64,000 bases of DNA from Pyronema omphalodes. Taxonomy: Eukaryota > Ascomycota > Pezizomycetes > Pezizales > Pyronemataceae. Shown here one piece after another: positions 1,332-62,615 of this stretch; the first letter of the stretch is position 1; every line of letters begins with the position of its first letter. The stretch covers positions 1 through 64,000 of the forward strand of contig JAJJXM010000078.1 in the NCBI GenBank assembly GCA_024516155.1. Reading direction: 5' to 3'. The notes beneath the pieces were generated by a model. The model made no database searches and was not told where the DNA came from. It saw only the letters and a list, made by a program, of their open reading frames with translations. The position numbers and the translations under genes were made by a program.

Positions 1332-2335
1332 TGTTAAGGGCGCCACGCAGATATCGATATCTGAGGTAGGCGACACACAAAGGTACGTCTATTCTTTCGT
1401 TGGTACCTATCGAGGTAGGCTGGCTGTTTTCTTGGTAGCGTGGCCGGTTGGGAGGGGGAAGTGATAGGTGGTGATGGAAGGGGTTAGGGTTGGAGGCTCT
1501 GGGGTTTTGCGTGATCTCGTTCAGCACACGGACAGACAATCTTGGAGTGGTCAAAGTAAGTTGGGGTGAAAGGTAATTGATTGCGTGAAGACTAACTACA
1601 GCGTTCCTCCCTTCTCCTTATATACATTAATCTCCTCCTTTTCCTCGTAACCCGAGGGGCTCATGCCCAGCAGTCCGACCCCCGGAGCTTCCCATAATTC
1701 CCGTAAGTCTTCACGCCCCTTTGTTTCCCATACTAACTAACTAACTAATAATAATAATTACAAACATATACCTGCTAAATAATCGCGTATCCTTTTTCTG
1801 GTTTCTTCCTATTTCTCCTCGCCTTCCGAAACGCGCGCCTCGCTTTCCTAATCCTACGCGAGCTCTCGCGCAGCTCCGTATTCGATCCACCTTCGCGCGT
1901 CACCTTCCCGTCGCTCCCTCCTCCGCTCCTTGCCGAAACTTCTCCCGTCTCTTTTCCCCAGCTCGGCCGAGCTCCACCGAGCTCCACCGAGCTCCACCGA
2001 GCTGTGTTACCTTCCTCGCCGTATCCTCCAGAGCTCTCCATAGCTCACCGAAGCTGTACCGAAGCTTCGCCGAGCTCCGTCCTGCTTCATCTCGCTTTCC
2101 TTCGTCCCACCTCGTTCCACCTCTTCCCCGACGACCTTCTTGTTCCTTTTTCCTCCTTGACCCCGCGACCTTCTTGTTCCTTTTTCCTCCTTGTCCCCCG
2201 TGGTCTTCTTGTTCCTTTGTTATTCTCGTCGTCCCGTGGTAGCCAAGTACCACACCGTTACCGTAATTCCCAACGCCCATGTGATTGCTGACGCAACCAT
2301 AGCTCCTATCAACATGTCATTGTTGATTCTTGACA
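1332..2335 (-). repeat. Element B 3' LTR
   Basis: 1004 bp. On the minus strand its first 116 nt encode the end of ORF3, including the membrane segment. A short run of repeated CTAA and TAA units lies at about 1733-1760. It is identical to 7827-8830 apart from one base I could see. Confidence 0.93.
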
Positions 2336-2996
2336 TTAGCCCCCTTTCCAGGGCCGAGGCTCCGACGAGGCTTCTTGGGTCTGATAGGTGAGTGGGTTCC
2401 TGAATTCGTCGGTGGTTGGGAATGGGTTGGGGACCCGGGGTTAGAGGATAGTAGGGTGACCGGGGCTCTGGTTCGGGAGGTCGTTCCGTATCGAGGGCCT
2501 GCGTTGGTTGAAGTTCCCTCTGAGAAGAGGATGCAGGGAGGTTGGGTTTTCTGGGTTCTTCTGGGTTGGGTAGCGTCGTGTGGGTTTCGTCGTAATTGGT
2601 GAGTTCGGGGATTCTCGTGGGGATTCGGCATCGTGAGGAGTGTTGGGTTAGGTTGACGAGGAATCCGCATTGATGGCAGATGCGTCTTCCTTGTTGCCAT
2701 CGTCGGCAGGCTTTTCGGGGGTTAAGTCGTTGGGTTCGGATGACTTCGTCGAGTTCGGGGGAATGCGTTTCACCACAGTAGCAGTGGTCCATCGGGTATC
2801 CGTTTTCTCCGGGAGGATTATAGGGGTTTTTCTGATTTTTTTGTTCTTGGTGAGTAGTACACTGGTCTTCGCGACAGAAGGTCCAGTGCAGGTTTTCGTG
2901 GGGTATATCGAAGAAAGGTAGGGGAAAGGTCAGATCGTGGTTCCGGACCATCGTCTCTTCCGAGGAGGTGTACTCCTGCGGGGAATCGTTTCTCAT
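2220..2996 (-). CDS. Element B ORF3: Cys/His-rich protein with C-terminal membrane segment
   Basis: 258 aa from ATG at 2996, two nt after the pol stop codon, so translation may be coupled to pol termination. I do not recognise the family. The N-terminal half carries conserved residues C41, C46, H49, C72, C74, H78, C97 and a CCHC finger C107-x2-C110-x8-H119-x3-C123. Residues about 135-205 are Pro-rich and look disordered. Residues about 229-251 (DMLIGAMVASAITW onward) are a hydrophobic membrane helix followed by a short basic tail. There is no signal peptide, so a tail-anchored topology fits. Codons from 2335 onward lie inside the 3' LTR. The ORF in C at 44419 has the same Cys/His spacing. The position after pol is that of env-like genes, but no homology to an envelope protein is claimed. 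Confidence 0.8.
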   Translation of the reverse strand: MRNDSPQEYTSSEETMVRNHDLTFPLPFFDIPHENLHWTFCREDQCTTHQEQKNQKNPYNPPGENGYPMDHCYCGETHSPELDEVIRTQRLNPRKACRRWQQGRRICHQCGFLVNLTQHSSRCRIPTRIPELTNYDETHTTLPNPEEPRKPNLPASSSQRELQPTQALDTERPPEPEPRSPYYPLTPGPQPIPNHRRIQEPTHLSDPRSLVGASALERGLMSRINNDMLIGAMVASAITWALGITVTVWYLATTGRRE

Positions 2997-2998
2997 TG

Positions 2999-5900
2999 CT
3001 AATTTTTTGGTGCTGGTTTTCGGGGGTATTTCCGGTGGAAGTCCTGGATGGCTTCTGGGGAGTTGTCGAAGTTGCCGGAGGGATACCAGGTCTTATCCTC
3101 GTCGTGGAATCCCTTCCACTTGACCTTATACTGTAGTTGTTTTCGGTAGTAACGGGAGTCAATTATTTCTTCGACTTCCCACTCTTGTTGTCCATCCACG
3201 ATGATCGCCGGAGGAGGAAGTTTGGTGTGTCCGGGGATGGGGGAATACTTTGTTGTGGTGGGTTCTAAGAGGGAGAGGTGAAAGACGGGGTGGATTTTTA
3301 CGCTGGGGGGAAGTTCGAGTTTATATGCTTTTGTTCCTATTTTTTCAAGGATGGTGTAGGGCCCTAAAAGTTTGTAGTCCAATTTATTCGAAGGGCGGGT
3401 TGTTTTTATGAACTTCCTTTTTAGCCATACCTTATCTCCTTTTCTCAAAATGGGGTCGGGTTTCCTTTTCCTATTTGCCTGTTCCGCTTGTTCTGCCTGT
3501 GCCCATTGTATTTCTGTACGTAGTTGATTTTGTAGATTATTTAAGGAGGTAACATAATCTGATACATCGGGGGTGGGGGTTTTTTCTGTACTAAGGTCCG
3601 GTTGAAATCTCGGCTGATATCCATAGTTTGCGTAGAACGGAGTAATTCCTAAGGTTTCGGATTTGGTATTGTTGTAACAAAACTCGGCGATAGGCAATAG
3701 TGTTTTCCAGTTATCTTGCTGGTAATTACAATATGCTCGTAAATATTGTTCCAGCGTAGCATTTGTTCTTTCTGTCTGCCCATCCGTTTCGGGATGAAAT
3801 GCTGTACTGAGGTTCCGAGTTGTTCCCATGGCTTCCATTATTTGTTTCCAAAATTTCGAGGTAAACAACGACCCTCGGTCGGATACGATACTGTTGGGGA
3901 GGCCATGGGCTCGTACTATGTGGGTGATAAATCCTTCGGCTAAGTCTTTCGGACCCATCGTGTCGTTGCATGCAACAAAGTGGGCCATCTTGGTGAGTCG
4001 ATCCACTATGACCCACAACGAATTACTTCCTTCCGTTTCAGGTAATCCGGTGATAAAGTCCATGGATATGGAGTCCCATGGTCTCGTTGGTAGTTGCAAT
4101 GGTTTGAGGAGTCCGAAGGGGGCATGGCGGATTGGTTTTATTCGTTTGCACGTATCACAGTTGTCTACGTACCTCTGTACGTATTGACGCTGTTGTGGCC
4201 AGTAGTATTTTCTGGAGAGGAGCTCAAGTGTTCGAGCTCGCCCTGGATGACCCGCGACGAGTGCGTCGTGGTGATCGTGGAGGATCTGCAGACGGAGTTC
4301 GTCATCTTGAGGTATCCAGATGCGTCCCTCGTATGTTAATAACCCGTTCCGTTCCTCGCACAGTCCTAGTGCTACCTTGTTATCTTGTCGTTCGCCGCTT
4401 CGTAATTTCTTCAGGACGTCTCTTATTTCTGGATCGGTCGTCATTTTTGTTTTTATTAGTTTTATTATATCCCCATCTTTTTTAATGTTTACTACCTCGG
4501 TGGTATTGACAACCAAAGTTTGTTCCGGGAGTAAAATGCGGTCCTTGTTTTGTCGATGTTTCGCCTCCCCTTCCCAGGGCGAGTCTCCTGACTCGCGGGA
4601 AAGGATGTCCGGTTTTCCAGCCAATTTGCCCGGTCTATACACGATGCGGAAGTCATAATTGGCAAGTACTTCTCCCCACCGTGCCTGGCGTAAATTGAGA
4701 TCTTTTTTTGTTTGCCAATACTCTAGGTTTTTGTGGTCTGTCAGTATTTTGATTTGTTGTTGGGTACTTTTGCAGTAAGTTGCCCATTTTTGTAGACTTT
4801 CCACAATTGCGAGCAATTCTTTGTCATGTATGTCATAATTTCGTTCGGCATCTTTTAACTTTCGGGAGAAGTATCCAAGTGGATGTAGCACACCGTCCGA
4901 GTCTGGTTGGGAGCAGACCGCACCGATAGCGTAATCGGATGCGTCTGTTTCTAGGGTAATGGGTTGGCTGGGTTCGAAATGGCGTAAGATGGGTTGGGTT
5001 ATCATGGCGAGTTTAATGTTGTCGAACGCTTGTTGTGCCGCATCGTCCCAGACAAAAGGTGTATCTTTTCGGATAAGTTTCGTGAGCGGTGTGGTAATTT
5101 TGCTGAAATCTCGTATGAACCTTCTATAGAAATTCGCAAAGCCAAGGAAGCTTTGGATTCCTTTTACGTTCGTTGGCTCTTTCCATTCTTTTACCGCTCT
5201 GACTTTTTCCGGGTCCATCGAGATTCCTTCTGGGGCGATGATGTATCCGAGGTATTCCGTTTTGTGTGTGTGAAATTCACACTTTGTTGCTTTTAGTTTG
5301 AGGCGTACGTCTTGGATTCGTGTTAGGATTAATCGTACATGGTCACGATGTTGTTGCAGATTGTCGGAGTAAATTAAAATATCATCTAGGTATGCGATAC
5401 AAAATATGTCGAGATAGTCGCTGAGTACTTCATTCATCCAACGCTGGAATGATGCCGGTGCATTGGTCAATCCGAAAGGCATTACTAGATATTCATAGAG
5501 ACCGTATTTCGTCCGAAAAGCGGTTTTCCATTCATCCCCCTTGGCTATCCGCAAGTTGTGATAGGCGTCTCTTACATCTAACTTGGTGTAAATCTTTGCT
5601 TTTGATAGTCGATCCAAGGCTTCTCCAATCAATGGGAGCGGAGTCCGGTCTTTGATGGTTATGGCATTAAGCCCCCGGTAGTCCACGCATAAGCGGAGCC
5701 CCCCGTCTTTCTTTTTTACAAAATGGATTGGGGCCCCCGCCGGGGAGGTTGAGCTTCTGATCCAACCCTTTTCCAAGCTACTATCGATATATTCTTTTAA
5801 TGCTTGAAGTCGGTTTTCGTCAAGGGCTCGCAATGGTTCGAACGGCGGTGATTTATTTTCAAGTAAGGGGATTTGGTGGTCTTGGCGTCGATGTGGCGGT

Positions 5901-6574
5901 AGGACGGTTTTGTTGTTGTCTCTGAACACTGCTAGATGGTCGTGATATTCCCGCGGTACGATTTTTTCTGGAGTTTGTTGTGCCGGGGAGGTGGCTTTCT
6001 CGGCGTCTTCCTTGTCCTCTGGTACGTTATTATAACGTTCGTTTGACTCATTTGTGAAGAATATCTCCTCGTACGCGGAAGAAAGTTCGCTCAGCGAGTC
6101 TTCCTGGTCCTCGTGGCTTTTGTTTCCTTTGCCTTGTGTTGTTTGTTGGTATTGTCGTATTGCTGCTTCTTCGGGAATAGTTCTGGCGTGTGGGGATTGT
6201 TCCAAGCAGTATTTTGCACATTTCTCGGAATCGAACGTTACTCTTCCTTCCTTCCAATCAATGTTTGGATTGTGCTTTTTTAACCATGGTAATCCCATTA
6301 TTATCGGTGAGTTTCCAATAGTGATGCAGTGGAGTTTTATGTCTTCGTGATGATTGTTGATGGTTAACTTAACGGTGGTGTCGTGGGTCACTGGCCCACT
6401 TGCAATTTCTCTTCCGTCAACTGTGAGGACTCTTCTTGGGATTATTTTTTTATTTAGGGGCAGTTTGATTTGGTACGCGTAATCTTGGTCAATGAAATTT
6501 TCTGTAGCCCCGCAGTCGACCATGGCGGTGGTATGATGTGTTTTGTTATTTTTTCCTTGAATAGTGACCTCCAA
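2999..6574 (-). CDS. pol: Element B pol polyprotein (protease, RT, RNase H, integrase, chromodomain)
   Basis: Numbering from 6574, the intact frame shows protease (VDCGATENF, residue ~18), RT with active site YLDD (~395), RNase H (LETDASDYAIG, ~540), an integrase zinc finger (HHDALVAGHP then CDTCKRIK), integrase core (MDFITGLPE, VSDRGSLF, TDGQTERTNA) and a C-terminal chromodomain (WEVEEIIDSRYYRKQLQYKV). The frame is open upstream to the gag end, without an ATG. It is in the -1 frame relative to gag, so it should be made as a Gag-Pol fusion by a slip at GGGAAAA near the gag stop. All catalytic residues I checked are present. Confidence 0.95.
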   Translation of the reverse strand: MEVTIQGKNNKTHHTTAMVDCGATENFIDQDYAYQIKLPLNKKIIPRRVLTVDGREIASGPVTHDTTVKLTINNHHEDIKLHCITIGNSPIIMGLPWLKKHNPNIDWKEGRVTFDSEKCAKYCLEQSPHARTIPEEAAIRQYQQTTQGKGNKSHEDQEDSLSELSSAYEEIFFTNESNERYNNVPEDKEDAEKATSPAQQTPEKIVPREYHDHLAVFRDNNKTVLPPHRRQDHQIPLLENKSPPFEPLRALDENRLQALKEYIDSSLEKGWIRSSTSPAGAPIHFVKKKDGGLRLCVDYRGLNAITIKDRTPLPLIGEALDRLSKAKIYTKLDVRDAYHNLRIAKGDEWKTAFRTKYGLYEYLVMPFGLTNAPASFQRWMNEVLSDYLDIFCIAYLDDILIYSDNLQQHRDHVRLILTRIQDVRLKLKATKCEFHTHKTEYLGYIIAPEGISMDPEKVRAVKEWKEPTNVKGIQSFLGFANFYRRFIRDFSKITTPLTKLIRKDTPFVWDDAAQQAFDNIKLAMITQPILRHFEPSQPITLETDASDYAIGAVCSQPDSDGVLHPLGYFSRKLKDAERNYDIHDKELLAIVESLQKWATYCKSTQQQIKILTDHKNLEYWQTKKDLNLRQARWGEVLANYDFRIVYRPGKLAGKPDILSRESGDSPWEGEAKHRQNKDRILLPEQTLVVNTTEVVNIKKDGDIIKLIKTKMTTDPEIRDVLKKLRSGERQDNKVALGLCEERNGLLTYEGRIWIPQDDELRLQILHDHHDALVAGHPGRARTLELLSRKYYWPQQRQYVQRYVDNCDTCKRIKPIRHAPFGLLKPLQLPTRPWDSISMDFITGLPETEGSNSLWVIVDRLTKMAHFVACNDTMGPKDLAEGFITHIVRAHGLPNSIVSDRGSLFTSKFWKQIMEAMGTTRNLSTAFHPETDGQTERTNATLEQYLRAYCNYQQDNWKTLLPIAEFCYNNTKSETLGITPFYANYGYQPRFQPDLSTEKTPTPDVSDYVTSLNNLQNQLRTEIQWAQAEQAEQANRKRKPDPILRKGDKVWLKRKFIKTTRPSNKLDYKLLGPYTILEKIGTKAYKLELPPSVKIHPVFHLSLLEPTTTKYSPIPGHTKLPPPAIIVDGQQEWEVEEIIDSRYYRKQLQYKVKWKGFHDEDKTWYPSGNFDNSPEAIQDFHRKYPRKPAPKN

Positions 6575-6681
6575 GATAATTTTTTCGTCACGTTGGTATC
6601 GTCCTATGCTTGATATTATGAGGGGGCGATCGGGGGGTTTTGGTTCGATGTTCTTTTTCCCCAGGAGCGGCGTCGGACTTC

Positions 6682-7758
6682 TTACTCCTGGGGATCCTCT
6701 TTTCCCGACTCGTCTTCTTGTGTCTCTTCGCTCAGCATTGCTTCAGCTGCACGGTAGGTTCTTCTCGGAGGATAAGGTTTTTTGTTAGGGCAGCGAGCGG
6801 AAAAATGTCCTGTCTTTCCGCAGTTGAAACACTCATTGTTTCGTCTTCTCTTTTCTTCTTCCATTCGGTCTTTTCCTCTTGTTCTTCGGGTTGCATCTAA
6901 TTCCATCGGTGTAGGGTCGGACATGTGGTTTTCATACGTGCGGGGGTGGCTGACATGGGTATCACGGAATTCCCGGTAGTATTGGTTGTCGTTTCGAGTT
7001 CGAAGGGTTCGGAAATTGAACAATGTATTGTCGAGGGCAATAGATTTGTTTACGTAGTCCGTGATATTGCGTGGTCTGTCATCTAACAGGGCGAGTTGTC
7101 GTTGTACTTCCATGTTCAACCCGTCATGGAACTGATCAATATACATTGAGTCGTTATAATCCAAATCCGCCATTAGTCTTTGGAAATCGGCCCAATAGGC
7201 AGCAGCAGAGCGGTTTCCTTGCTTAATGTTTTTGAATTTTCGTCGTGCTACTTCCTTGCTATCGGCTTCTCCGAAGGCTCTACCAATAGCTGTCTTGAAA
7301 TCTTTCCAGGTTTCATACTTACTTACGCCCTCCTCTTTCATTGATGGTTCGATCCATGCCCAGGCGTTTCCCCTACACCTGGCACTGGCATAATTGACTT
7401 TTTTCGCATCCCTATCGAATTTGCTCGGTTCACAGTTGAACTTGAGCTCACATTGGATAAGGAACGCTCTTAACTTGGCTCTTTCGCCGTAATAGAGCTC
7501 GGGGTCTTCGATCTTAGGTTGACTAGACGGGGGAGGTTGATACAACTGTTGCAAAAGGGTTTGCAGTTGATCGGTCGTCATCTGGACGGGGGGAAGGGAG
7601 GCTCCCGAAGTTCCGTGAGGGGTCGTCATTCCGGAGTTATCTTCTTCGTTCGTTGTTGGGGACTGGGGTCTCGAAGGTTGTTCTGGCGTCACTGGGCTGG
7701 CTGGTCTGGCGTACTCGCTGATAGCTTCGCCGAGATCTTGTAACTGGAAGGGATCCAG
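6682..7758 (-). CDS. gag: Element B gag
   Basis: About 358 aa: a capsid-type retrotransposon gag domain (around ELYYGERAKLRAFLIQCELK) and one CCHC knuckle CFNCGKTGHFSARC near the C-terminus. No ATG lies between the 5' LTR and the conserved N-terminus. The likely start is CTG at 7758 in the context ACC-CTG-G, because the sequence from DPFQLQ onward is conserved with C, where the same position is GTG. The first in-frame ATG would drop about 45 conserved residues. The frame is open upstream to 7821. The end, TCG GGA AAA GAG, contains the frameshift heptamer. Confidence 0.85.
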   Translation of the reverse strand: MDPFQLQDLGEAISEYARPASPVTPEQPSRPQSPTTNEEDNSGMTTPHGTSGASLPPVQMTTDQLQTLLQQLYQPPPSSQPKIEDPELYYGERAKLRAFLIQCELKFNCEPSKFDRDAKKVNYASARCRGNAWAWIEPSMKEEGVSKYETWKDFKTAIGRAFGEADSKEVARRKFKNIKQGNRSAAAYWADFQRLMADLDYNDSMYIDQFHDGLNMEVQRQLALLDDRPRNITDYVNKSIALDNTLFNFRTLRTRNDNQYYREFRDTHVSHPRTYENHMSDPTPMELDATRRTRGKDRMEEEKRRRNNECFNCGKTGHFSARCPNKKPYPPRRTYRAAEAMLSEETQEDESGKEDPQE

Positions 7759-7815
7759 GGTTTTTTTTTTGTTTGGACGGTCGTTCGTTGGGTGTGTCGG
7801 GTACCTCGGGGGGAG

Positions 7816-7825
7816 ACGCAATCAA
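7816..7825 (-). promoter_or_regulatory. Element B primer site, complementary to LTR R region
   Basis: Just inside the 5' LTR the minus strand reads TTGATTGCGT. Its complement ACGCAATCAA occurs in the LTR at 8072-8081 (minus strand), 32 bp after the TATA box. This fits self-priming by the 5' end of the transcript, as known for Tf1, and there is no TGG-type tRNA site. Confidence 0.75.
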
Positions 7826-7826
7826 A

Positions 7827-8830
7827 TGTTAAGGGCGCCACGCAGATATCGATATCTGAGGTAGGCGACACACAAAGGTACGTCTATTCTTTCGTTGGTA
7901 CCTATCGAGGTAGGCTGGCTGTTTTCTTGGTAGCGTGGCCGGTTGGGAGGGGGAAGTGATAGGTGGTGATGGAAGGGGTTAGGGTTGGAGGCTCTGGGGT
8001 TTTGCGTGATCTCGTTCAGCACACGGACAGACAATCTTGGAGTGGTCAAAGTAAGTTGGGGTGAAAGGTAATTGATTGCGTGAAGACTAACTACAGCGTT
8101 CCTCCCTTCTCCTTATATACATTAATCTCCTCCTTTTCCTCGTAACCCGAGGGGCTCATGCCCAGCAGTCCGACCCCCGGAGCTTCCCATAATTCCCGTA
8201 AGTCTTCACGCCCCTTTGTTTCCCATACTAACTAACTAACTAATAATAATAATTACAAACATATACCTGCTAAATAATCGCGTATCCTTTTTCTGGTTTC
8301 TTCCTATTTCTCCTCGCCTTCCGAAACGCGCGCCTCGCTTTCCTAATCCTACGCGAGCTCTCGCGCAGCTCCGTATTCGATCCACCTTCGCGCGTCACCT
8401 TCCCGTCGCTCCCTCCTCCGCTCCTTGCCGAAACTTCTCCCGTCTCTTTTCCCCAGCTCGGCCGAGCTCCACCGAGCTCCACCGAGCTCCACCGAGCTGT
8501 GTTACCTTCCTCGCCGTATCCTCCGGAGCTCTCCATAGCTCACCGAAGCTGTACCGAAGCTTCGCCGAGCTCCGTCCTGCTTCATCTCGCTTTCCTTCGT
8601 CCCACCTCGTTCCACCTCTTCCCCGACGACCTTCTTGTTCCTTTTTCCTCCTTGACCCCGCGACCTTCTTGTTCCTTTTTCCTCCTTGTCCCCCGTGGTC
8701 TTCTTGTTCCTTTGTTATTCTCGTCGTCCCGTGGTAGCCAAGTACCACACCGTTACCGTAATTCCCAACGCCCATGTGATTGCTGACGCAACCATAGCTC
8801 CTATCAACATGTCATTGTTGATTCTTGACA
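7827..8830 (-). repeat. Element B 5' LTR
   Basis: 1004 bp, TG...CA in element orientation. It contains the promoter: TATATAA on the minus strand at 8113-8119, then the putative transcript start near 8081. Confidence 0.93.
8113..8119 (-). promoter_or_regulatory. Element B TATA box
   Basis: TATATAA on the minus strand (GTATATAAGG context), 32 bp upstream of the ACGCAATCAA segment that pairs with the primer site. Confidence 0.65.
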
Positions 8831-38921: not shown

Positions 38922-39668
38922 TGTCACGAACCGCTAGGGATATGCTTCTGGGAGGGATTGTAACCACAGCTGGGCTGTGGTTCGTGGGTGTGACGCTGGG
39001 GATGGCGTACGTCATAGTTAGGGTTTAAGCGAAGAGGTGGAGCTAGGGCTAGGCGAGAGGAGTTAGGGTTAAGCGAGGGACAAGGGGGTAAGTGCGAGGT
39101 GGAACGAGGAGGGTTTCCTCGAGGTTTGGAATATGTTTTGCTTATGTTTTGTATTGTGTTTTGCTTATGTTTTGTATTATGTTTTGCTTATGTTTTGTAT
39201 TATGTTTTGGTTTATGTTTGTATTGTGTTTTAGTTAGGTTTTGGGAGTCACGGTGGAGCGAAGGGTGTCTCATGATGGATAGAATATCTGCGGGTCAGAT
39301 AAGTTGGGAAATCACATGAGCACAGGGACAAAGGTATATAAGGGGACATTTGTATTTCATTAGTCTAGTACGCAATCAATTATCTATTTACACAATCCTA
39401 TCTACACACTGCAGTTCTATCATCTAAACCGTGACCGCAAACCCTGCCCATCCCAACATACTTACCCATCCCGAATACCCACCTATCCTCCCACCCAGAT
39501 CCCCATCCGACGATTCTATCAGAGGCAACGCTGCAGGGACATCCTGTGTACAAGGTAAGTACTGCCTGAGCCCGTGACTAACTCACCTAGAAGTCCAGAG
39601 CCGAACCCGATTGCATAGCAATCCGACGGTTGTATCGCCTGTCGGCCGTGTGTAGCCGGATTTTGACA
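38922..39668 (+). repeat. Element C 5' LTR
   Basis: 747 bp. The first ~110 nt can encode a membrane segment (ARDMLLGGIVTTAGLWFVG) that in the 3' LTR lies in the ORF3 frame. TATATAA at 39335-39341; ACGCAATCAA at 39370-39379 is the likely transcript start and self-primer. ATGTTTTG-rich direct repeats lie at about 39130-39215. An intron-like GTAAGT...CTAAC...TAG lies at about 39555-39590. Confidence 0.92.
39335..39341 (+). promoter_or_regulatory. Element C TATA box
   Basis: TATATAA, 35 bp before ACGCAATCAA, the segment that pairs with the primer site. Confidence 0.65.
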
Positions 39669-39680
39669 TTTGATTGCGTC
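39669..39680 (+). promoter_or_regulatory. Element C primer site
   Basis: TTTGATTGCGTC directly follows the 5' LTR; TTGATTGCGT pairs perfectly with ACGCAATCAA of the LTR. The same primer site occurs in B. Confidence 0.75.
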
Positions 39681-39761
39681 CTCCGAACGACACCCGATAC
39701 AACTAAGGAAGCACGAAGGGCTTCAACCACAACTAAGAAAAAATAAGTAACAACCAATACC

Positions 39762-40844
39762 GTGGATCCGTTCCGATTGCAGGAGCTGAGCGAGGTTATC
39801 GAAAGGGAAGCCACCGGTCCAGCGAGCCCAGTAACCCCCGAACACCGATCCCGCCCACAGACTCCGGATTCACCGGGACCAGCACAGATTCCCGAGGACA
39901 TAGCATCCATAATGGCCTCTCAACAGGGAACGAGCGGTATGACGCCACCTTCGGTCGTGATGACCCAGGAGCAGCTTCAACAACTGTTCCAACAACTCAC
40001 CTATCGACCCTCTCCGACCAGTAATCCCAAGGTCGAGGATCCCGAACTCTATCACGGCGAGAGGACGAAGCTTCGGGCTTTCCTGACTCAGTGCGAGCTG
40101 AAGTTCAACTGTGAACCGAACAGGTTCGACAGTGATATTAAAAAAGTTAATTACGCCAGTTCGCGGTGCCGGGGAAATGCGTGGTCATGGATTGAACCCT
40201 CCATCGAGAGGGGGAGGAGCACGTACACCACCTGGGAGGCATTCAAGACTGCCGTCTCGAGAGCGTTTGGAGAGGCGGATTCAAGGGAAGTGGCGAAGAG
40301 GAAATTCAAAAATGTCCGTCAGGGAAATCGGTCCGCCGCAGCGTATTGGGCCGAGTTGCAGAGAATTATCGCGGACCTGCGTTACAACGACGAAATCTAC
40401 ATTGATCAGTTCAGCGATGGACTTCATGTGGACGTACAAAGGCAACTCGCCATCCTCGAAACCCGTCCGACGAAGATAATCGATTTCGCAAACAAAGCAA
40501 TTGCATTGGACAACCGGCTGTTCAATTTCCGGACCCTGCGAAACCGATTCGAACCTCAGTACCAGAATTTCCATCCGAGGAACGGCCACCAGGGATCGAC
40601 CTTCTCGGAACCCGAGCCGATGGAACTGGATGCCACTCGGAGGGGCAGGCCTAGGGATAGGACCGCGGAAGAGAAACGACGAAAAAACAACGAGTGTTTC
40701 AACTGCGGGAAAACGGGCCACTATGCCGCCAAATGCCCCCACAAGAAACCAATGGGGGAACGACGAACGTACCGGGCGGCAGACGCCAACATCGACGAGG
40801 AACAAGTCGAAGAAAGAGCGGGAAAAGAGGATCCCCAGGAGTAA
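39762..40844 (+). CDS. gag: Element C gag (likely GTG start)
   Basis: 360 aa from GTG at 39762 (context ACC-GTG-G). There is an in-frame TAA at 39744-39746 and no ATG anywhere in the leader; the first in-frame ATG is 39912. Because residues 2-50 (DPFRLQELSEVI, PASPVTPE) are conserved with B, they are probably translated. Capsid-type domain (ELYHGERTKLRAFLTQCELK) and CCHC knuckle CFNCGKTGHYAAKC follow. The end GCG GGA AAA GAG holds the GGGAAAA slip site (40820-40826). Confidence 0.87.
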   Translation: MDPFRLQELSEVIEREATGPASPVTPEHRSRPQTPDSPGPAQIPEDIASIMASQQGTSGMTPPSVVMTQEQLQQLFQQLTYRPSPTSNPKVEDPELYHGERTKLRAFLTQCELKFNCEPNRFDSDIKKVNYASSRCRGNAWSWIEPSIERGRSTYTTWEAFKTAVSRAFGEADSREVAKRKFKNVRQGNRSAAAYWAELQRIIADLRYNDEIYIDQFSDGLHVDVQRQLAILETRPTKIIDFANKAIALDNRLFNFRTLRNRFEPQYQNFHPRNGHQGSTFSEPEPMELDATRRGRPRDRTAEEKRRKNNECFNCGKTGHYAAKCPHKKPMGERRTYRAADANIDEEQVEERAGKEDPQE

Positions 40845-43800
40845 AAAAACAAGGTGGACTTCTGGGGACGAAGAGTTCCGCCGAACCAGACAATCCGGAA
40901 CCAGCCTACATGATATTGAGCGTAGGGCCATACCGGCGAGATGAAAAGATCATATTGAAAGTAGTAATAAAAGGAAAAGATAATCGAGAACACACCACGA
41001 CGGCCATGGTGGACTGTGGAGCGACGGAGAACTTCATCGATAAGGAATATGCGGAAAAGGTGGGGATTCCGTTGAAGAAGAAGGACGTCCCACGAAGGGT
41101 GTTGGCAGTGGACGGACGAGAGATAGCTAGTGGACCAGTCACCCACGAAGCTATGGTAAGATTACAGATCAACAACCATCAGGAGGATATTTGGCTGCAT
41201 TGTATCACGATTGGAAACTCACCTATCATTGTGGGACTTCCATGGCTCCGAACGCACAACCCCAGTATCGACTGGAACGAGGGCAGAGTTACGTTTGCCT
41301 CGGCGCGTTGCGCTAAGAGGTGCCTAGGGACCTCGACCTCACCTCACGCGACCACGGTAACGGAAAACAACGCTATTCAGCAATATCGCCTGGACACTGC
41401 GCAGGCCGCAGCCAGGGAAGAAAGAATATGCGAAGCAAGTTGGGGAGAAAGGAAGGAAACCTGGGGAAGTAGAACGAGGAAAAAGGAACAAGAAGCGGCG
41501 CCGTGGCGAAGAAGGATCGGAAAGGACCAGGAAAGAGAGGGGGAAGAGGAGCAACAAGGAAGGGTCCAAGTCGGGGCACAAGATGATCTCCTTCGAAGGG
41601 AGTTCGAGGAGGAATGGAAAGAGTCCCGGGATGCTGCACAAAACGATCCTTTTCGAATGCAGCCCGAAGGGAAAGAAGAAAAGGAGCAACGGAAACGGAC
41701 CCGGGGAACTGCACAGAACGACCCTTTTCGAATGCAGCCCGAGGAAGGGGAAGAAATAAAGGAGGAACGGAAACCGATCCGGGATGGTGCAGAAAAGGAT
41801 CCTTTTCGAATGCAGGCCGATGGAAACGAGGAAGATGGGGAAGATGAGGAGGAATCGGAAGGAAACTTTGACTGGATCGCTTACGCCGCCATGGGATCGC
41901 TACAGGACGAGCAGTATGGCTCCGTTCGGGAACCCGTATCCCAGGGTTCAGCCAAACAGCAGGAACCGACCCCGCGTTCGGCTGGTGACATTGTTCCGGT
42001 CGAATATCACGACTTCTTGCATGTATTCGACAAGGAAGAAGTGTCGGGACGACCCCCACACCGCCATCACGACCATCGGATTCCCTTGGTGAAGGGAGGG
42101 GTTCCACCATTCGAACCCCTTCGAGCATTGGACGAGGGAAGGTTGAAAACGTTAAGAGAATACTTGGACACGAGCCTGGAGAAGGGATGGATACGCCGCT
42201 CGACATCACCGGCGGGGGCCCCGATTCATTTTGTGAAGAAGAAGGATGGCACACTAAGACTCTGTGTGGATTATCGGGGGCTTAACGAGATCACAGTGAA
42301 AGATAGAACACCTCTCCCGTTGATCGGGGAAGCGTTGGATCGACTATCCAACGCAAAGATATACACGAAACTCGACGTACGGGACGCCTATCATAACCTG
42401 CGAACCGCAAAGGGGGACGAATGGAAGACCGCTTTTCGGACGAAATACGGTCTTTTTGAATATTTGGTCATGCCATTCGGTCTTACCAACGCTCCAGCAT
42501 CCTTTCAGAGGTGGATGAACGAGGTCCTCAGCGACTATCTAGACATCTTCTGTCTGGCATACCTCGACCACATCCTCATCTACTCGGATCATCTGCAGCA
42601 ACACCAACAACATGTGAGAAAGGTTTTGGAACGGGTGGATAAGGTAAAGTTGAGGCTCAAGGCCTCAAAATGCGAGTTTCACACCACGGAGATGGAGTAC
42701 TTGGGATATATCATCTCACCAACGGGGATAAGGATGGATCCGGAGAAGGTAAGAGCAGTGGCAGAATGGAGGGAACCGACAAACGTGAAGGGAATCCAGA
42801 GTTTCATAGGGTTCGCCAACTTCTATAGGAGGTTTATCCGGGATTTTAGCAAGATTACGGCGCCTCTTACGAAACTGACGAGGAAGGATGTAACATGGAA
42901 ATGGGACGACGCGGCTAAATCAGCATTCGAACAGCTGAAACGGGCAATGATTTCTGAACCTATCCTACGACATTTTGACCCCACAAAACCCTTAACCCTG
43001 GAGACAGATGCGTCGGATTACGCCATCGGAGCAGTCTGCTCGCAGCCGGACGACCAAGGCATCCTACATCCCTTGGGATATTTCTCGCGCAAACTGAAGG
43101 ACCCGGAACGAAATTACGATATACACGATAAAGAACTCCTCGCCATAGTTGAAGGGCTAAATAAATGGGGTACCTACTGCAAGAATACTCGACACAAGAT
43201 TACTATATTGACGGACCATAAAAATTTGGAATATTGGACTACAAAAAAAGACCTAAACCTACGGCAGGCAAGGTGGGCGGAAATGTTGGCAAATTACGAC
43301 TTCGCAATAACGTATCGACCCGGCAAACTGGCGGGAAAGCCCGACATCCTATCGAGAGAATCAGGAGATTCTCCTTGGGAAGGGGAGCTGAAACACAGGC
43401 AGAACAGGGAACGAGTTCTTTTGCCGCCGCAGACCTTCTTGATCAACTCTGCCGAGGTCATGGAAATACAGGTCGACGAGGAATTGTTAAAAGAAATCCA
43501 ACAGAAAACAAGGGAGGATCAGGAGATACAGGAGATATTAAGGAAATTACGAACTGGGGAGAAGACAGACCGGAAGGTGGCAATGGGGACGTCAAGGAAG
43601 CTCAGCACCGCATTCCACCCCGAGACCGACGGACAGACCGAACGCACGAACGCCACCCTCGAACAGTACCTGCGGGCGTACTGCAATTACCAGCAGGACG
43701 ACTGGGAAAAGCTACTCCCAATGGCGGAGTTTTGCTATAACAACACTCAATCCGAGACAAGAAAGGTAACCCCCTTTTTCGCGAATTATGGGTATCATCC

Positions 43801-44380
43801 GCGGTTCGCACCCAGCCTAGGGAAAATAGAAGGAGGATTCCCGGAGGTGGCGGAATACGTCTCAGCCCTCACCAACCTCCACCGGGAACTACAGGCAGAA
43901 ATCGGATATGCACAGGCTGCCCAGGCAGAACAGGCAAATCGGAAGAGACACCCGGATCCCGTACTCAGGGAGGGGGATAGGGTGTGGTTGCGGAGGAAAA
44001 ACGTGAAGACAACTCGCCCATCCAGCAAGTTGGATTACAAGCTGATGGGACCATACACCATCCTCGAGCGAGTGGGGACAAGAGCGTATAAATTGGATCT
44101 CCCCGCCAGTGTGAAAATACACCCCGTATTCCACATCTCATTGCTCGAGCTGGCTCAACCCACCCTTACACCGATCCCCGGGCACGTCCAACCTCCTCCC
44201 CCACCAATTGTTATTGAGGACGAAGAGGAATGGGAAGTGGAGGAGATAGTTGATTCCCGCTATCATCGAAACAGACTCCAGTATCGTGTACGTTGGACGG
44301 GATTCCCTGATCCCGACCGAACTTGGTACCCATCGGAGAACTTCACGAATTCCCCTGACGCTATCCGACGATTTCACTAA
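40694..44380 (+). pseudogene. pol: Element C pol, defective (YLDH, integrase deletion)
   Basis: Open frame of 1228 aa, -1 to gag and really entered near 40823. Protease (VDCGATENF, ~107); a long charged linker (~236-390) with repeats containing NDPFRMQ; RT whose active site reads YLDH (~623) instead of YLDD; RNase H (LETDASDYAIG). At about 43590 the sequence jumps in frame from KVAMG to TSRKLSTAFHP: about 190 residues present in B, covering the integrase zinc finger and the first two catalytic Asp, are gone. The Glu region (TDGQTERTNA) and chromodomain (WEVEEIVDSRYHRNRLQYRV) remain. A stop ends it 11 codons before the position expected from B. Confidence 0.9.
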
Positions 44381-44418
44381 ACCTACCCAAGAAAACCGGC
44401 CCCAAGGTTGTAAGAACC

Positions 44419-45177
44419 ATGGCTAGCCCCATAAACCCCGAGAACGACCAACACTCCGGCGGCTGGTACCGCCAGGATGCCCCACCACCGACAACCACGT
44501 ATCCCCCACACGATGCCCAACACTGGACCTTTTGTTACGACGACTACTGCGCCACACATCGACAATCGAAAGAAAACTACAACCATTTTCCAACCGCTGG
44601 GCGGGAAGGAACCAACGAATGCAACTGCGGACGGACGCATGATCCCGAGTTAGAGGCTGTGATCAGGAGGAAACATCTGGACGTTCGGAAGGCCTGTCGG
44701 GCCTGGCAGCGAGGAAAGAGGGTCTGCTACGACTGTGGGTTTCTGGTTAACATGGACGGCCATGAAGCCAGATGCGGCGCCACAGGGCCTGCCCGCTCCA
44801 CGACAACTCCCGCTCCGACACCGGATGAACCGACCCCCGTCCCGGAGAAAGACCAGCAACACCCCAACGGGGAACAGCCACCAACAGCACCCAAGCTGGC
44901 CTCGGAAACCTCGAGCGAGACTTTGATGGAGAAGAGGTACGTCCCTGTCTACCTCATGTCTCCGAACAGGGACCCCGAACGACTCGCAATAAACCTCTCT
45001 TTCTACGGACCACCCACTGGAAAAGAAGAAGTGCCACCGCCGACCCACACCCCACCGCCATTCGAGGGGTCCTCGTTGCCGGAGCACTCCAGCACTGGTT
45101 TCGGAGGAGACTCTCCCCGCCGCCAACGACTATCCGGCAGATGCCGCCGCCAGAACCGCAATCGCCGTCGGCAGTGA
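44419..45177 (+). CDS. Element C ORF3: Cys/His-rich protein, sister of B ORF3
   Basis: 252 aa from ATG at 44419. C39, C44, H47, C68, C70, H74, C93, C103, C106, H115 and C119 match the B residues with identical spacing; shared stretches include HWTFC, VIR, RKACR and CGFLVN. The C-terminal half is Pro/Thr-rich. The frame ends at TGA 45175-45177. Beyond that stop the same frame reads TSLVGVSAWRG, LLSRTARDMLLGG and a hydrophobic stretch inside the LTR, matching the end of B ORF3 (SLVGASALERG). So C has a broken version, or one that needs a frame change; a frameshift just upstream would also restore similarity. Function unknown. Confidence 0.75.
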   Translation: MASPINPENDQHSGGWYRQDAPPPTTTYPPHDAQHWTFCYDDYCATHRQSKENYNHFPTAGREGTNECNCGRTHDPELEAVIRRKHLDVRKACRAWQRGKRVCYDCGFLVNMDGHEARCGATGPARSTTTPAPTPDEPTPVPEKDQQHPNGEQPPTAPKLASETSSETLMEKRYVPVYLMSPNRDPERLAINLSFYGPPTGKEEVPPPTHTPPPFEGSSLPEHSSTGFGGDSPRRQRLSGRCRRQNRNRRRQ

Positions 45178-45250
45178 CAACCCCGACCTCGTCCCCATGG
45201 GGAACCTCAGACAAGCCTCGTCGGAGTCTCGGCCTGGAGGGGGGAGCTAC

Positions 45251-45997
45251 TGTCACGAACCGCTAGGGATATGCTTCTGGGAGGGATTGTAACCACAGCT
45301 GGGCTGTGGTTCGTGGGTGTGACGCTGGGGATGGCGTACGTCACAGTTAGGGTTGAAGCGAAGAGGTGGAGCTAGGGCTAGGGCAGAGGAGTTAGGGTTA
45401 AGCGAGGGACAAGGGGGTAAGTGCGGGGTGGAACGAGGAGGGTTTCCTCGAGGTTTGGAATATGTTTTGCTTATGTTTTGTATTGTGTTTTGCTTATGTT
45501 TTGTATTATGTTTTGCTTATGTTTTGTATTATGTTTTGGTTTATGTTTGTATTGTGTTTTAGTTAGGTTTTGGGAGTCACGGTGGAGCGAAGGGTGTCTC
45601 ATGATGGATGGAATATCTGCGGGTCAGATAAGTTGGGAAATCACATGAGCACAGGGACAAAGGTATATAAGGGGACATTTGTATTTCATTAGTCTAGTAC
45701 GCAATCAATTATCTATTTACACAATCCTATCTACACACTGCAGTTCTATCATCTAAACCGTGACCGCAAACCCAGCCCATCCCAACATACTTACCCATCC
45801 CGAATACCCACCTATCCTCCCACCCAGATCCCCATCCGACGATTCTATCAGAGGCAACGCTGCAGGGACATCCTGTGCACAAGGTAAGTACTGCCTGAGC
45901 CCATGACTAACTCACCTAGAAGTCCCGAGCCGAACCCGATTGCATAGCAATCCGACGGTTGTATCGCCTGTCGGCCGTGTGTAGCCGGATTTTGACA
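45251..45997 (+). repeat. Element C 3' LTR
   Basis: 747 bp. Its first ~120 nt continue the ORF3 frame with a membrane-like segment (GGIVTTAGLWFVGVTLGMAY), ending at a TAG near 45373. Confidence 0.92.
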
Positions 45998-46002
45998 TTC
46001 AT
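45998..46002. repeat. Target-site duplication of element C, right copy (TTCAT)
   Basis: Matches 38917-38921. Confidence 0.88.
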
Positions 46003-56034: not shown

Positions 56035-56360
56035 GAGGATTGTTTCTTTGTTTGTTTATTTTGTTTTTCTTTTCTCCTTACACAGTTATTTGTTTATTTA
56101 CAAATTCAAATACTTTGTCGAAAATCTTTGTTTACGTCCTCGTTCTCGTCCCCGTCTTTGGATCTCTTTGTCCCTTGAAATCTTTGTTTATTTCCTTAAC
56201 TTCTAAACACAGAAAGTCTTTAAGTTGATGCTAGACACAGCTTAAGAGTTTCTAACGTTGAAGTTATTATAAGGATATATCCATTGAACTCAAGAGTGAA
56301 TAATTGAGAAGAGCCCTCAGGTTCTCCGTCAGCTATCTCTCCCTTGTTCGCCGTTACAAC

Positions 56361-56371
56361 ATAACTGTGTA
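56361..56371 (+). promoter_or_regulatory. Element G primer site
   Basis: ATAACTGTGTA, two nt inside the 5' LTR, is complementary over 11 nt to TACACAGTTAT at 56079-56089. This has the length and placement of the Tf1 self-primer duplex. Confidence 0.75.
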
Positions 56372-56421
56372 ATCAAGACCTGCCGGCTCTACCGTCAACT
56401 CTCGATTACAACAAGCTTTAC

Positions 56422-60700: not shown

Positions 60701-61436
60701 CGTCAACTATCTTCAAGACGATTGGGCTGATTGGTTACCATTAGCGGAATTCGCTGCGAATAACCAAGCATCCGAGACAACGGGAACTTCCCCGTTCTTT
60801 GCTAATAAAGGATTCGACCCCCGTTGTCAATTCGATTTACTTCCAGCAGCTACGAACGATGTAAACGATCGACGGGCCCTCACAACTTCGAAAACCCTCG
60901 CCGAAATCCATAACCATTTACGAGCTGAGATCAACAGAGCTAATCTACGTTATCAAGAGAATGCCGATAAACATCGACTCCCGTCACCGAATTATCAGCC
61001 CGGAGATCTGGTATGGATGAATGCCCGTAATTGGAAAACCCGTCGACCCTCCCGGAAATTAGACAACAAACGTTACGGACCCCTCAAGATTATCGCCAAA
61101 GTATCCCCCTATGCCTATCGATTAGAACTACCTCCGACAATGAAATGTCACAACGTTCAACATGTTTCCTTATTGGAACCCGCTGCGAATGACCCCTACC
61201 CCGGTCAACAATCAGACCCACCACCCCCGGTGGAAATCGACGGTGAAGACGAATACTTCATCGAAGCTATCCTCGACTCCCGAATTCACCGGAAGAAACT
61301 TCAGTATATGGTTAAATGGGTTGGATACGATATGCCCGATTGGGAACCCGCCGAACTCCATTTCGACAGTAAAGCCGTTGACGACTTTCATAAAAAGTAT
61401 CCCGATAAACCGGGACCCCTCCCCAACTTATCTTAG
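57579..61436 (+). CDS. pol: Element G pol polyprotein (1285-codon frame)
   Basis: The frame overlaps gag and is entered near 57711 by -1 slippage. Numbered from 57579: protease (VDCGCTGISF, ~110), RT (~340-520, active site YLDD in AYLDDTLIYSD, ~470), RNase H ([12 protein letters not shown], ~619), integrase zinc finger (HHDSPTAGHP, NCHTCQRSK, ~860-905), core (MDFVTGLP ~930, ISDRGPQF ~991, TDGQTERMNA ~1022) and chromodomain (FIEAILDSRIHRKKLQYMVK, ~1225-1275). No stops, all catalytic motifs present. Confidence 0.95.
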   Translation: MSLLWISRSFQERMFYVGSKQLPQDSPSRRRGFGYSNKPRRRPGKRVVHQQPVGSVVGPAPASSFVSSQEIVYVSASSLSSKQENELDGNHLVVPCTLTEHNTKIDTHALVDCGCTGISFMNEDFARQHNFPRYQLKNPKMVEVIDGRPISSGDITEYVEVECTIGDHHELLTAYVTRLGHYPLVLGIPWLRKHDVTINFADNDIKFSSPNCLPHRTTLTPTPVKGIAPKQQNKICAISATTFRRIVNNANNRYGKVEQFSLSLNEITTALQPEKEEPDLKTIVPPEYHQYLGIFEKVNADKLPPHRPSDHKISLVDGFQPPFGPLYSLSRPELEELKRWLDENLTKGFIRASSSPAAAPILFVKKGDGSLRLVVDYRGINAGTIKNRYPLPLMQDTLMNLSRAKWFTKLDIRGAYNLIRMANGEEWKTAFRTRYGLFESLVMPFGLTNAPATFQNFINDVLAPYLDRFCTAYLDDTLIYSDNLEEHKQHVKLILEAFEKAGLHLKPEKCEFHQKEVKYLGLIISTEGIKMDPEKITAVRDWESPRNLKDVRAFLGFANFYRRFVKNYSKIVQPLTLLTRKGVPFVWSESQQQAFEELKSTFTSAPVLARFDPDRDVIVETDASDYVSAGVLSQYDDKGILHPIAYFSKKHSPAECNYEIYDKELMAIVRAFEEWRPELQSVINPIRVLSDHKNLEYFTSTKLLNRRQARWSQFLSQFNFKIVYRPGTAGGKPDALTRRSGDLPKEGDERSLENHTTIIKPENILHAAAVTPSNQQTITNSQQTVIPDPQQTNPTLSQLFTEAYEKDPFPIKVIEMLNNNTRYCKDITLAECTVNNNRLFYRGCLWVPNYEPLRLHLMQQHHDSPTAGHPGRSKTLEYLSRTYTWPQMRTDVERYIRNCHTCQRSKPTRHAPFGILRPLPIPERPWQDISMDFVTGLPWSNGCDAIWVVVDRLTKERHLIACRTDIDAKELSSLFITHIFRLHGLPLTIISDRGPQFAALFWKNLCRRLGIEPRLSTAFHPQTDGQTERMNAIMEQYLRAHVNYLQDDWADWLPLAEFAANNQASETTGTSPFFANKGFDPRCQFDLLPAATNDVNDRRALTTSKTLAEIHNHLRAEINRANLRYQENADKHRLPSPNYQPGDLVWMNARNWKTRRPSRKLDNKRYGPLKIIAKVSPYAYRLELPPTMKCHNVQHVSLLEPAANDPYPGQQSDPPPPVEIDGEDEYFIEAILDSRIHRKKLQYMVKWVGYDMPDWEPAELHFDSKAVDDFHKKYPDKPGPLPNLS

Positions 61437-61475
61437 AAGTTACTTCGCCGGAGCTCAGTCCAAGAAGGGGGATCC

Positions 61476-62615
61476 TGTCACGGCTCGAGAATTATTACCT
61501 TCCCCCTCCTCGTCATTCATTCACCTATTATCATTCGCTTCATTACCCAGCACTCGTTTGTTTATTTATTTCTGTTATCCTTCGGTCTTCGATCATCACT
61601 CGTCACTCGCCTGGGTTAGGGTTGCGCTCAATTCCCAAATTGTCAAAAAGGTCACGTGACTTATCCCCAGGGTTAGGGGTCAGCTCGGATCCCTTTTCGG
61701 AAATTCCATACCTACGGTCTACCGATCATCTTATCCGATTAGATAAGATCGGTCACGTGTTCTAATCAATAGTAGATCAGTATGCATGCGCACTGGTCTA
61801 CTAATGTGCGCACTCGTGACTAGGGCTAGGGCACGATCATCTTATCGATAAGATAAGATCTAGTCATGTGACCTTATCAGTATTGCACCATCTTTCCAAT
61901 CGCAGCTGATCTGGTTTCACGTGACTAGGGTTAGGGTTGCGCCCGCACGCACACAAACTAGGGTTAGGTTTGTGACCGTACGCGCACAGCTAGGGTTAGG
62001 GTTACGGACGCACGCGCACGATTAGGGTTACGGAAGCGCGCGCGTGACTACGCTTAGGGTTACGCTAGCGCGCACGCGAAGTACGCTACCGCGCACGCGA
62101 GTTACGCTATCGCGCACGCGAGATACGCTAACGAGCGCGCGACGAGGCTGTGCACGCAAACACGCTAGTTTGGTACGAACGCGTTAGCGCGTCTAGAACG
62201 CGCAACCGCGACCGCGTTGTTTACTTAGTTATTTTTCGGGAAAATTCTGCAAGCCGTGGCTCGGCGTGTAAGGAGGAAAAAATGTATATAAGAGGATTGT
62301 TTCTTTGTTTGTTTATTTTGTTTTTCTTTTCTCCTTACACAGTTATTTGTTTATTTACAAATTCAAATACTTTGTCGAAAATCTTTGTTTACGTCCTCGT
62401 TCTCGTCCCCGTCTTTGGATCTCTTTGTCCCTTGAAATCTTTGTTTATTTCCTTAACTTCTAAACACAGAAAGTCTTTAAGTTGATGCTAGACACAGCTT
62501 AAGAGTTTCTAACGTTGAAGTTATTATAAGGATATATCCATTGAACTCAAGAGTGAATAATTGAGAAGAGCCCTCAGGTTCTCCGTCAGCTATCTCTCCC
62601 TTGTTCGCCGTTACA
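61476..62615 (+). repeat. Element G 3' LTR
   Basis: 1140 bp, one visible difference from the 5' LTR. Confidence 0.93.

Follow-up and report, generated by a model that had tools for sequence, protein, structure and literature searches.

Elements B and C

The window, by which we mean the whole 64-kb stretch of DNA analysed here, belongs to a genome of 60.8 Mb in 232 contigs and is crowded with long terminal repeat (LTR) elements. Element B occupies positions 1332–8830 on the reverse strand, between a 5′ LTR (7827–8830) and a 3′ LTR (1332–2335) that are 99.9% identical. Its gag (6682–7821, reverse strand) is an open frame with a capsid-type domain and a CCHC knuckle, and its pol (2999–6742, reverse strand) has Pfam matches to reverse transcriptase (RT), RNase H, an integrase zinc domain (score 73.5), SH3 and, at the end, a chromodomain; the rve core scored 29.2 bits, below its cut-off of 32.6. 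The set of RT, RNase H, integrase and chromodomain, together with the capsid domain of gag, identifies B as a Ty3/Gypsy chromovirus. Element C (38922–45999, forward strand; LTRs at 38922–39670 and 45251–45999) is a relative of B on the basis of Pfam domains and pol comparison. The pol frame of this copy (40661–44380) is open and contains RT, RNase H, SH3 and chromodomain, but lacks a counterpart of B pol residues 794–970, which make up most of the integrase, and no integrase was found in it by Pfam.

Downstream of pol, B carries a third open reading frame, ORF3 (2220–2996, reverse strand), which encodes 258 amino acids. The frame is open over 2220–3092, and its ATG, at 2996, lies 2 nt past the pol stop codon (TAG CA ATG). 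Because the LTR pair spans 1332–2335 and 7827–8830, the last 116 nt of ORF3 (2220–2335, reverse strand) are LTR sequence, as the initial annotation had claimed; they encode a predicted membrane-type helix and the stop codon. In the window copy of C, ORF3 (44419–45177, forward strand) ends prematurely after 252 codons at a stop (45175–45177) upstream of the LTR at 45251, and the anchor is therefore not encoded by that copy. The LTR stretch of C had also been assigned to the ORF3 frame: the LTR does continue in this frame, and intact family members include the first 107 nt of the 3′ LTR (45251–45999, forward strand) in ORF3, but the window copy stops before the anchor.

Predicted ORF3 protein

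In the ORF3 protein, a variable linker joins a conserved Cys/His domain to a C-terminal helix. In B, the Cys/His domain covers residues 33–124 (2625–2900, reverse strand), as delimited by alignment, model confidence and low dN/dS (0.12 for B–D). The eleven Cys/His positions reported earlier are common to B and C with the spacings claimed, and beside them stand two further histidines, H33 and H37, that are invariant in 15 aligned members. The ligand positions are invariant or nearly so in these 15 members, and most are conserved at ≥90% among 49. This is the ligand set of a zinc-binding domain, and ORF3 probably binds zinc, judging by the ligand pattern.

For B ORF3, AlphaFold2 predicted the Cys/His part (approximately residues 33–125) fairly confidently (block means of 68–91, with a dip to 52 at residues 61–70), a disordered linker and a helix at residues 223–255 of 258 (core block means of 92–95), with an overall pTM of only 0.31. 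The helix is placed near the C-terminus by this prediction (a tail-anchored protein would have a single membrane helix there and be cytosolic otherwise), and most relatives with a retained tail have their hydropathy maximum 2–12 residues from the end of the protein. The data fit the earlier proposal of a tail-anchored, probably zinc-binding protein encoded after pol. The hint of an env-like gene that came with it was not supported, since the sequence reads as a charged N-terminus with the hydrophobic stretch at the extreme C-terminus.

Of 18 proteins picked for comparison (those of the five families plus 13 of the 96 database relatives described below), 17 have a net positive charge over the 40 residues that precede the conserved tail; the exception is window B (−1), which has no basic linker. 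In three distant relatives (P0047, P0049 and P0058) an apparent coil-like linker lies between the Cys/His domain and the tail, by reading. Hydrophobicity alone proves little, because LTRs without ORF3 reach Kyte–Doolittle values of 1.9–2.2 in some frame of their first 40 codons. The case for an LTR-coded tail is carried by conservation and selection.

ORF3 families and relatives

Related ORF3s occur in at least five families of the genome, B to F, which were obtained by sorting genome matches by identity. B ORF3 gave 147 genome matches (147 of 390 candidates scored) and C ORF3 gave 151 (150 of 252 candidates scored). Among the C matches listed, 39 cover residues 1–252 (window copy counted); 34 of these have no stop, and 32 of the 34 also belong to a stop-free frame of ≥347 codons; among the 32, C231 (L046) has an altered tail. 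For family E, 54 of the 78 assigned matches among those listed lie in a stop-free frame of 345–362 codons. Intact ORF3s in the genome encode 234–355 amino acids.

ORF3 of C, D, E and F is 32–58% identical to that of B, and RT of the same families is 79–89% identical (F over 212 residues only); for four near full-length RTs of other window elements, identity to B is 51–56%. In an RT tree of 15 sequences, a branch with 100/100 support separates the eight ORF3-bearing sequences from the others. Because the ORF3 bearers group in this tree and are closer to B in RT identity than other window elements are, a single gain of ORF3 would be the simplest account.

Database searches yielded 96 ORF3 relatives, all with JGI or ENA entries save for one named protein, from Pyronema domesticum. 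The tail motif is present in the last 45 residues of 49 of the 96, the others being fragments or more divergent. Three relatives (P0017, P0037 and P0042) are named ribosomal protein L32 at their source, a label that probably stems from their Cys pattern. Within the genome, ORF3 of one D copy (L028) is fused in frame with the chromodomain end of pol. The ORF3 copies L032 and L056 terminate in residues translated from the start of another LTR family (TGTCACACCCTA...); this start also occurs at 1202–1250 of the window, so that the family seems to insert into ORF3. Family G, which has no ORF3, contains a 171-codon open frame without a Cys/His domain that starts inside pol and extends into the 3′ LTR (window 61144–61659).

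The LTR edge as coding DNA

The part of ORF3 inside the LTR, stop included, measures 116 nt in B, D and F, 107 nt in C and 104 nt in E, with the terminal TGTC at codon phase 1 (one copy per family, five families). The LTR begins at codon phase 1 in every one of the 32 copies that are intact and full-length (10 from B, 11 from C, 3 from D, 5 from E and 3 from F), and in all five families ORF3 passes from the polypurine tract into the LTR in the same codon phase. The tail was identified as LTR sequence from LTR pairs within the window (B and C), LTR pairs in four copies (D), two clear pairs with 6.3-kb spacing in a set of 18 matches (F) and five pairs 6.7–6.9 kb apart among the 40 matches listed (E). 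Coding at the U3 edge, originally described for B and C, is not confined to them, as at least five families have the trait. With its anchor in U3, ORF3 shares this DNA with two other roles, so that one stretch has to be integrase end, U3 start and helix code.

Directly upstream of the polypurine tract, B ORF3 contains a putative cis element, CTCGNCGGAGNCTCGGCC (2352–2369, reverse strand), marked by low synonymous divergence; the same element lies upstream of the polypurine tract in C (45217–45234, forward strand). The tract region itself (2336–2351, reverse strand) is read as ORF3 codons L-E-R-G-L, followed by M over the LTR edge. The 18-nt element has 168 exact copies in the genome, against 0 for the reversed control. 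In ten family pairs, the 13 codons ahead of the LTR have a pS of 0.09–0.27 (approximately 11 synonymous sites each), far below the values in the Cys/His domain (0.59–0.81) and the LTR part (0.61–0.74), and dN/dS there ranges from 0.39 to 3.7 because pS is low. By these divergences, the 13 codons, which overlap the cis element and the polypurine tract, are held at synonymous sites. A looser form of the element precedes the polypurine tract of family G, for which reason the element looks older than ORF3, the gene having apparently been laid across it.

Selection on ORF3

Selection within families was estimated from 32 intact full-length copies of the 52 loci in which an ORF3 start was found (window included); being restricted to intact copies, this set is purged of nonsense and indel changes. 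Pooled over families, the LTR-coded part carries 23 synonymous and 14 non-synonymous changes (pN/pS 0.23; binomial p = 1.3 × 10−5), compared with pN/pS of 2.02 and 1.05 in its other frames, and ORF3 before the LTR has a pN/pS of 0.42. By family, pN/pS of the LTR part is 0.16 in B, 0.09 in C and 0.20 in D, and the signal is weaker in E (0.72 on 6 changes) and F (0.62 on 3) taken alone; one B locus entered the per-family calculation twice, with changes unaffected.

Between families, dN/dS of the LTR part is 0.19–0.60 in all ten pairs (0.19 for B–D and 0.23 for C–E), at pS values that place synonymous sites near saturation. A between-family frame test favoured the ORF3 frame for B–D and C–E, although for B–D frame 1 also reached p = 0.031, and for B–F frame 1 outscored the ORF3 frame.

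ORF3 is stop-free and full-length in six of the seven B copies in which pol is one uninterrupted match (window included), an outcome that does not refute the initial annotation, which frames randomly broken beside intact pol would have contradicted. In seven further B copies, which have gag but a broken pol, ORF3 is intact in three (L012, L015 and L017), has stops in three (L019, L020 and L021) and is split by an insertion in L031.

These comparisons show purifying selection on protein sequence in the Cys/His domain and, pooled over families, in the LTR-coded tail, so that the constraint anticipated for the tail holds in the ORF3 frame, more weakly in E and F alone. We are highly confident that ORF3 is a selected protein with an LTR-coded tail.

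The pol–ORF3 junction

The ORF3 ATG lies 2 (E), 5 (B), 8 (D), 14 (F) or 41 nt (C) from the first base of the pol stop codon, an offset of 2 mod 3 in all five families (one copy each). Stop and start codons thereby overlap as TAATG in E and are separated by 2 nt in B and 38 nt in C; in B and C, the last part of pol and the ORF3 frame overlap. Stop–restart translation at overlapping or close stop and start codons occurs in hypoviruses (under 5% there) and in SART1 (PMC5972666, in part). Stop–restart after the pol stop codon is our preferred, putative expression route for ORF3.

Comparison with known systems

Searches of Pfam and of the PDB by profile and by fold gave no match that assigns ORF3 a role, and known families give no explanation of it; the initial annotation had recognised no family either. 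Profile searches found no match to an Env family. An Env protein would have an N-terminal signal peptide, a large ectodomain and a membrane anchor; with its charged N-terminus and C-terminal hydropathy maximum, ORF3 does not qualify as a retroviral or errantivirus Env.

In lentiviruses, nef is a sense accessory gene that spans the polypurine tract and continues into the U3 region of the 3′ LTR, and its membrane-associated product is N-myristoylated and has no Cys/His domain. ORF3 is alike in being a sense frame that crosses the polypurine tract into the 3′ U3; it differs in having a C-terminal helix coded by U3 as its anchor, and a Cys/His domain. PDB profile searches revealed no sequence relation between the two, and ORF3 is not Nef proper, with no meaningful PDB sequence match, no PDB fold match at E ≤ 0.001 and no MG start.

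Third genes are known from other LTR elements. sORF2 of the Drosophila MDG1 group is, like ORF3, an accessory membrane protein of Ty3/Gypsy elements without Env, but it lies mostly upstream of gag; the portion of its description available to us makes no mention of LTR coding (PMC11952523). LTR elements of plants (PMC7264820, in part) and bdelloid rotifers (PMC5408684, in part) have, like ORF3 elements, an extra sense frame after pol, in third position and sometimes with membrane segments. The third frames described there are env-like or encode an esterase or exonuclease, whereas ORF3 has a Cys/His domain and an LTR-coded anchor (PMC7264820 and PMC5408684, in part). The brtn gene of Boty-like elements of Botrytis is likewise an additional gene in fungal Ty3/Gypsy elements; compared by description, it is antisense to gag–pol, whereas ORF3 lies on the gag–pol strand and crosses the LTR edge, which sets brtn apart (PMC8365987 and PMC7264820, in part). 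No printed description of ORF3 was found in the open-licence PubMed Central literature, as far as this was covered.

Proposed role of ORF3

We consider it reasonably probable that, in one Ty3/Gypsy chromovirus clade, ORF3 serves as a true accessory gene whose product is made by stop–restart, is tail-anchored and tethers particles or RNA to a membrane. In this scheme, ORF3 would be translated from full-length RNA by stop–restart at the pol stop codon, its Cys/His part would fold round zinc, and the protein would be inserted post-translationally by its tail anchor, leaving the Cys/His domain in the cytosol. It could then tether Gag particles or element RNA to the endoplasmic reticulum or nuclear envelope, and such a tether may aid assembly or nuclear entry. 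Several observations weigh against this scheme: the 38 nt between stop and start codons in C, the weaker tail signal in E and F alone, the B–F frame test, the restriction of the pN/pS counts to intact copies, the near-saturated synonymous sites between families and the lack of a basic linker in window B. Taken singly, the function itself, that of an adaptor anchored by its tail and linking particles or RNA to an internal membrane, is a plausible but tentative assignment. That ORF3 represents an undescribed retroelement protein family, namely a tail-anchored zinc protein with a U3-encoded membrane anchor, is a possibility that we advance with reserve.

ORF3 might instead be a counter-defence protein, for instance one that suppresses RNA silencing from a membrane. 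By the identities to B given above, its evolution is faster than that of RT, and the Pfam motif WCCH (PF03716) weakly matches the N-terminal motif at E ≤ 0.1 in 11 of the 49 members searched, with a best value of 0.0001; according to InterPro, a geminivirus silencing suppressor, V2, contains this motif (PMC7831499, in part). Yet WCCH comprises 25 positions, the scores of two members (17.5 and 15.8 bits) are below its curated cut-off of 22.4, and B, C, D and F tested singly gave no match, which leaves counter-defence unlikely.

About as improbable, in our estimate, is a factor for cell-to-cell transfer that would let capsids cross membranes without an envelope, perhaps at hyphal fusions. The analogy is with sORF2 of Drosophila MDG1, an accessory membrane protein with low non-synonymous rates that was proposed as such a factor and lies downstream of pol in some Lepidoptera (PMC11952523, in part); ORF3 similarly has one membrane-type helix, with the net positive stretch ahead of it in 17 of the 18 picked members. 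However, sORF2-like proteins have 63–107 amino acids, a central helix, an ectodomain of approximately 30 residues and often an MGxxxS/T start (PMC11952523, in part), whereas intact ORF3s have 234–355 amino acids and a helix at the extreme C-terminus, behind the Cys/His domain, and an MG start is absent from the 96 relatives, many of which are fragments. On the same features, ORF3 does not class as an sORF2- or FAST-like fusogen.

We also doubt that ORF3 is a C-terminal extension of Pol made by frameshifting, which would anchor the polyprotein itself. The identical frame offset from pol in five families, and the overlap of the ORF3 frame with the last part of pol in both B and C, would suit such a product. 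Against it, family E has two stops 6–7 codons upstream of the ORF3 ATG, and in five of ten intact B copies just 3 codons of open frame precede the ATG, leaving little room for frameshifting; the position of the ATG is, moreover, kept within each family.

Finally, conservation of the LTR start as a cis signal only, with ORF3 entering by accident, would explain the nucleotide-level conservation of the 13 pre-LTR codons (dN/dS up to 3.7 on approximately 11 synonymous sites) and the similar element before the polypurine tract of ORF3-less family G, but it is very improbable and appears already disfavoured by the within-family frame comparison, as this pattern stops at the LTR edge, inside which the protein is conserved at a pS of 0.61–0.74, and as the synonymous excess within families occurs in the ORF3 frame alone.

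Fungal LTR elements usually have two open reading frames, gag and pol (survey; PMC3248453, in part). A third, selected gene in at least five families would, if the reading of ORF3 as an accessory gene is correct, represent nef-like U3 coding outside vertebrate retroviruses, with an LTR edge that is integrase substrate, U3 start and membrane-helix code at once. LTR-based annotation and dating would then be treating part of a protein gene as neutral sequence. If ORF3 is indeed a tail-anchored zinc protein, these chromoviruses may be membrane-tethered without Env and possibly mobile between nuclei or cells, and the use of host membranes in their cycle becomes testable.

Complementarity near the 5′ LTR

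A separate feature was observed just inside the 5′ LTR, where a stretch complementary to 10 nt of the element's own LTR is present in B (7805–7829) and C (39668–39692), with the same 10-mer in both. Family G has a stretch in the corresponding place (56356–56380) that is complementary to 12 nt of its own LTR. The arrangement in B, C and G may correspond to that of Tf1-type self-priming elements.
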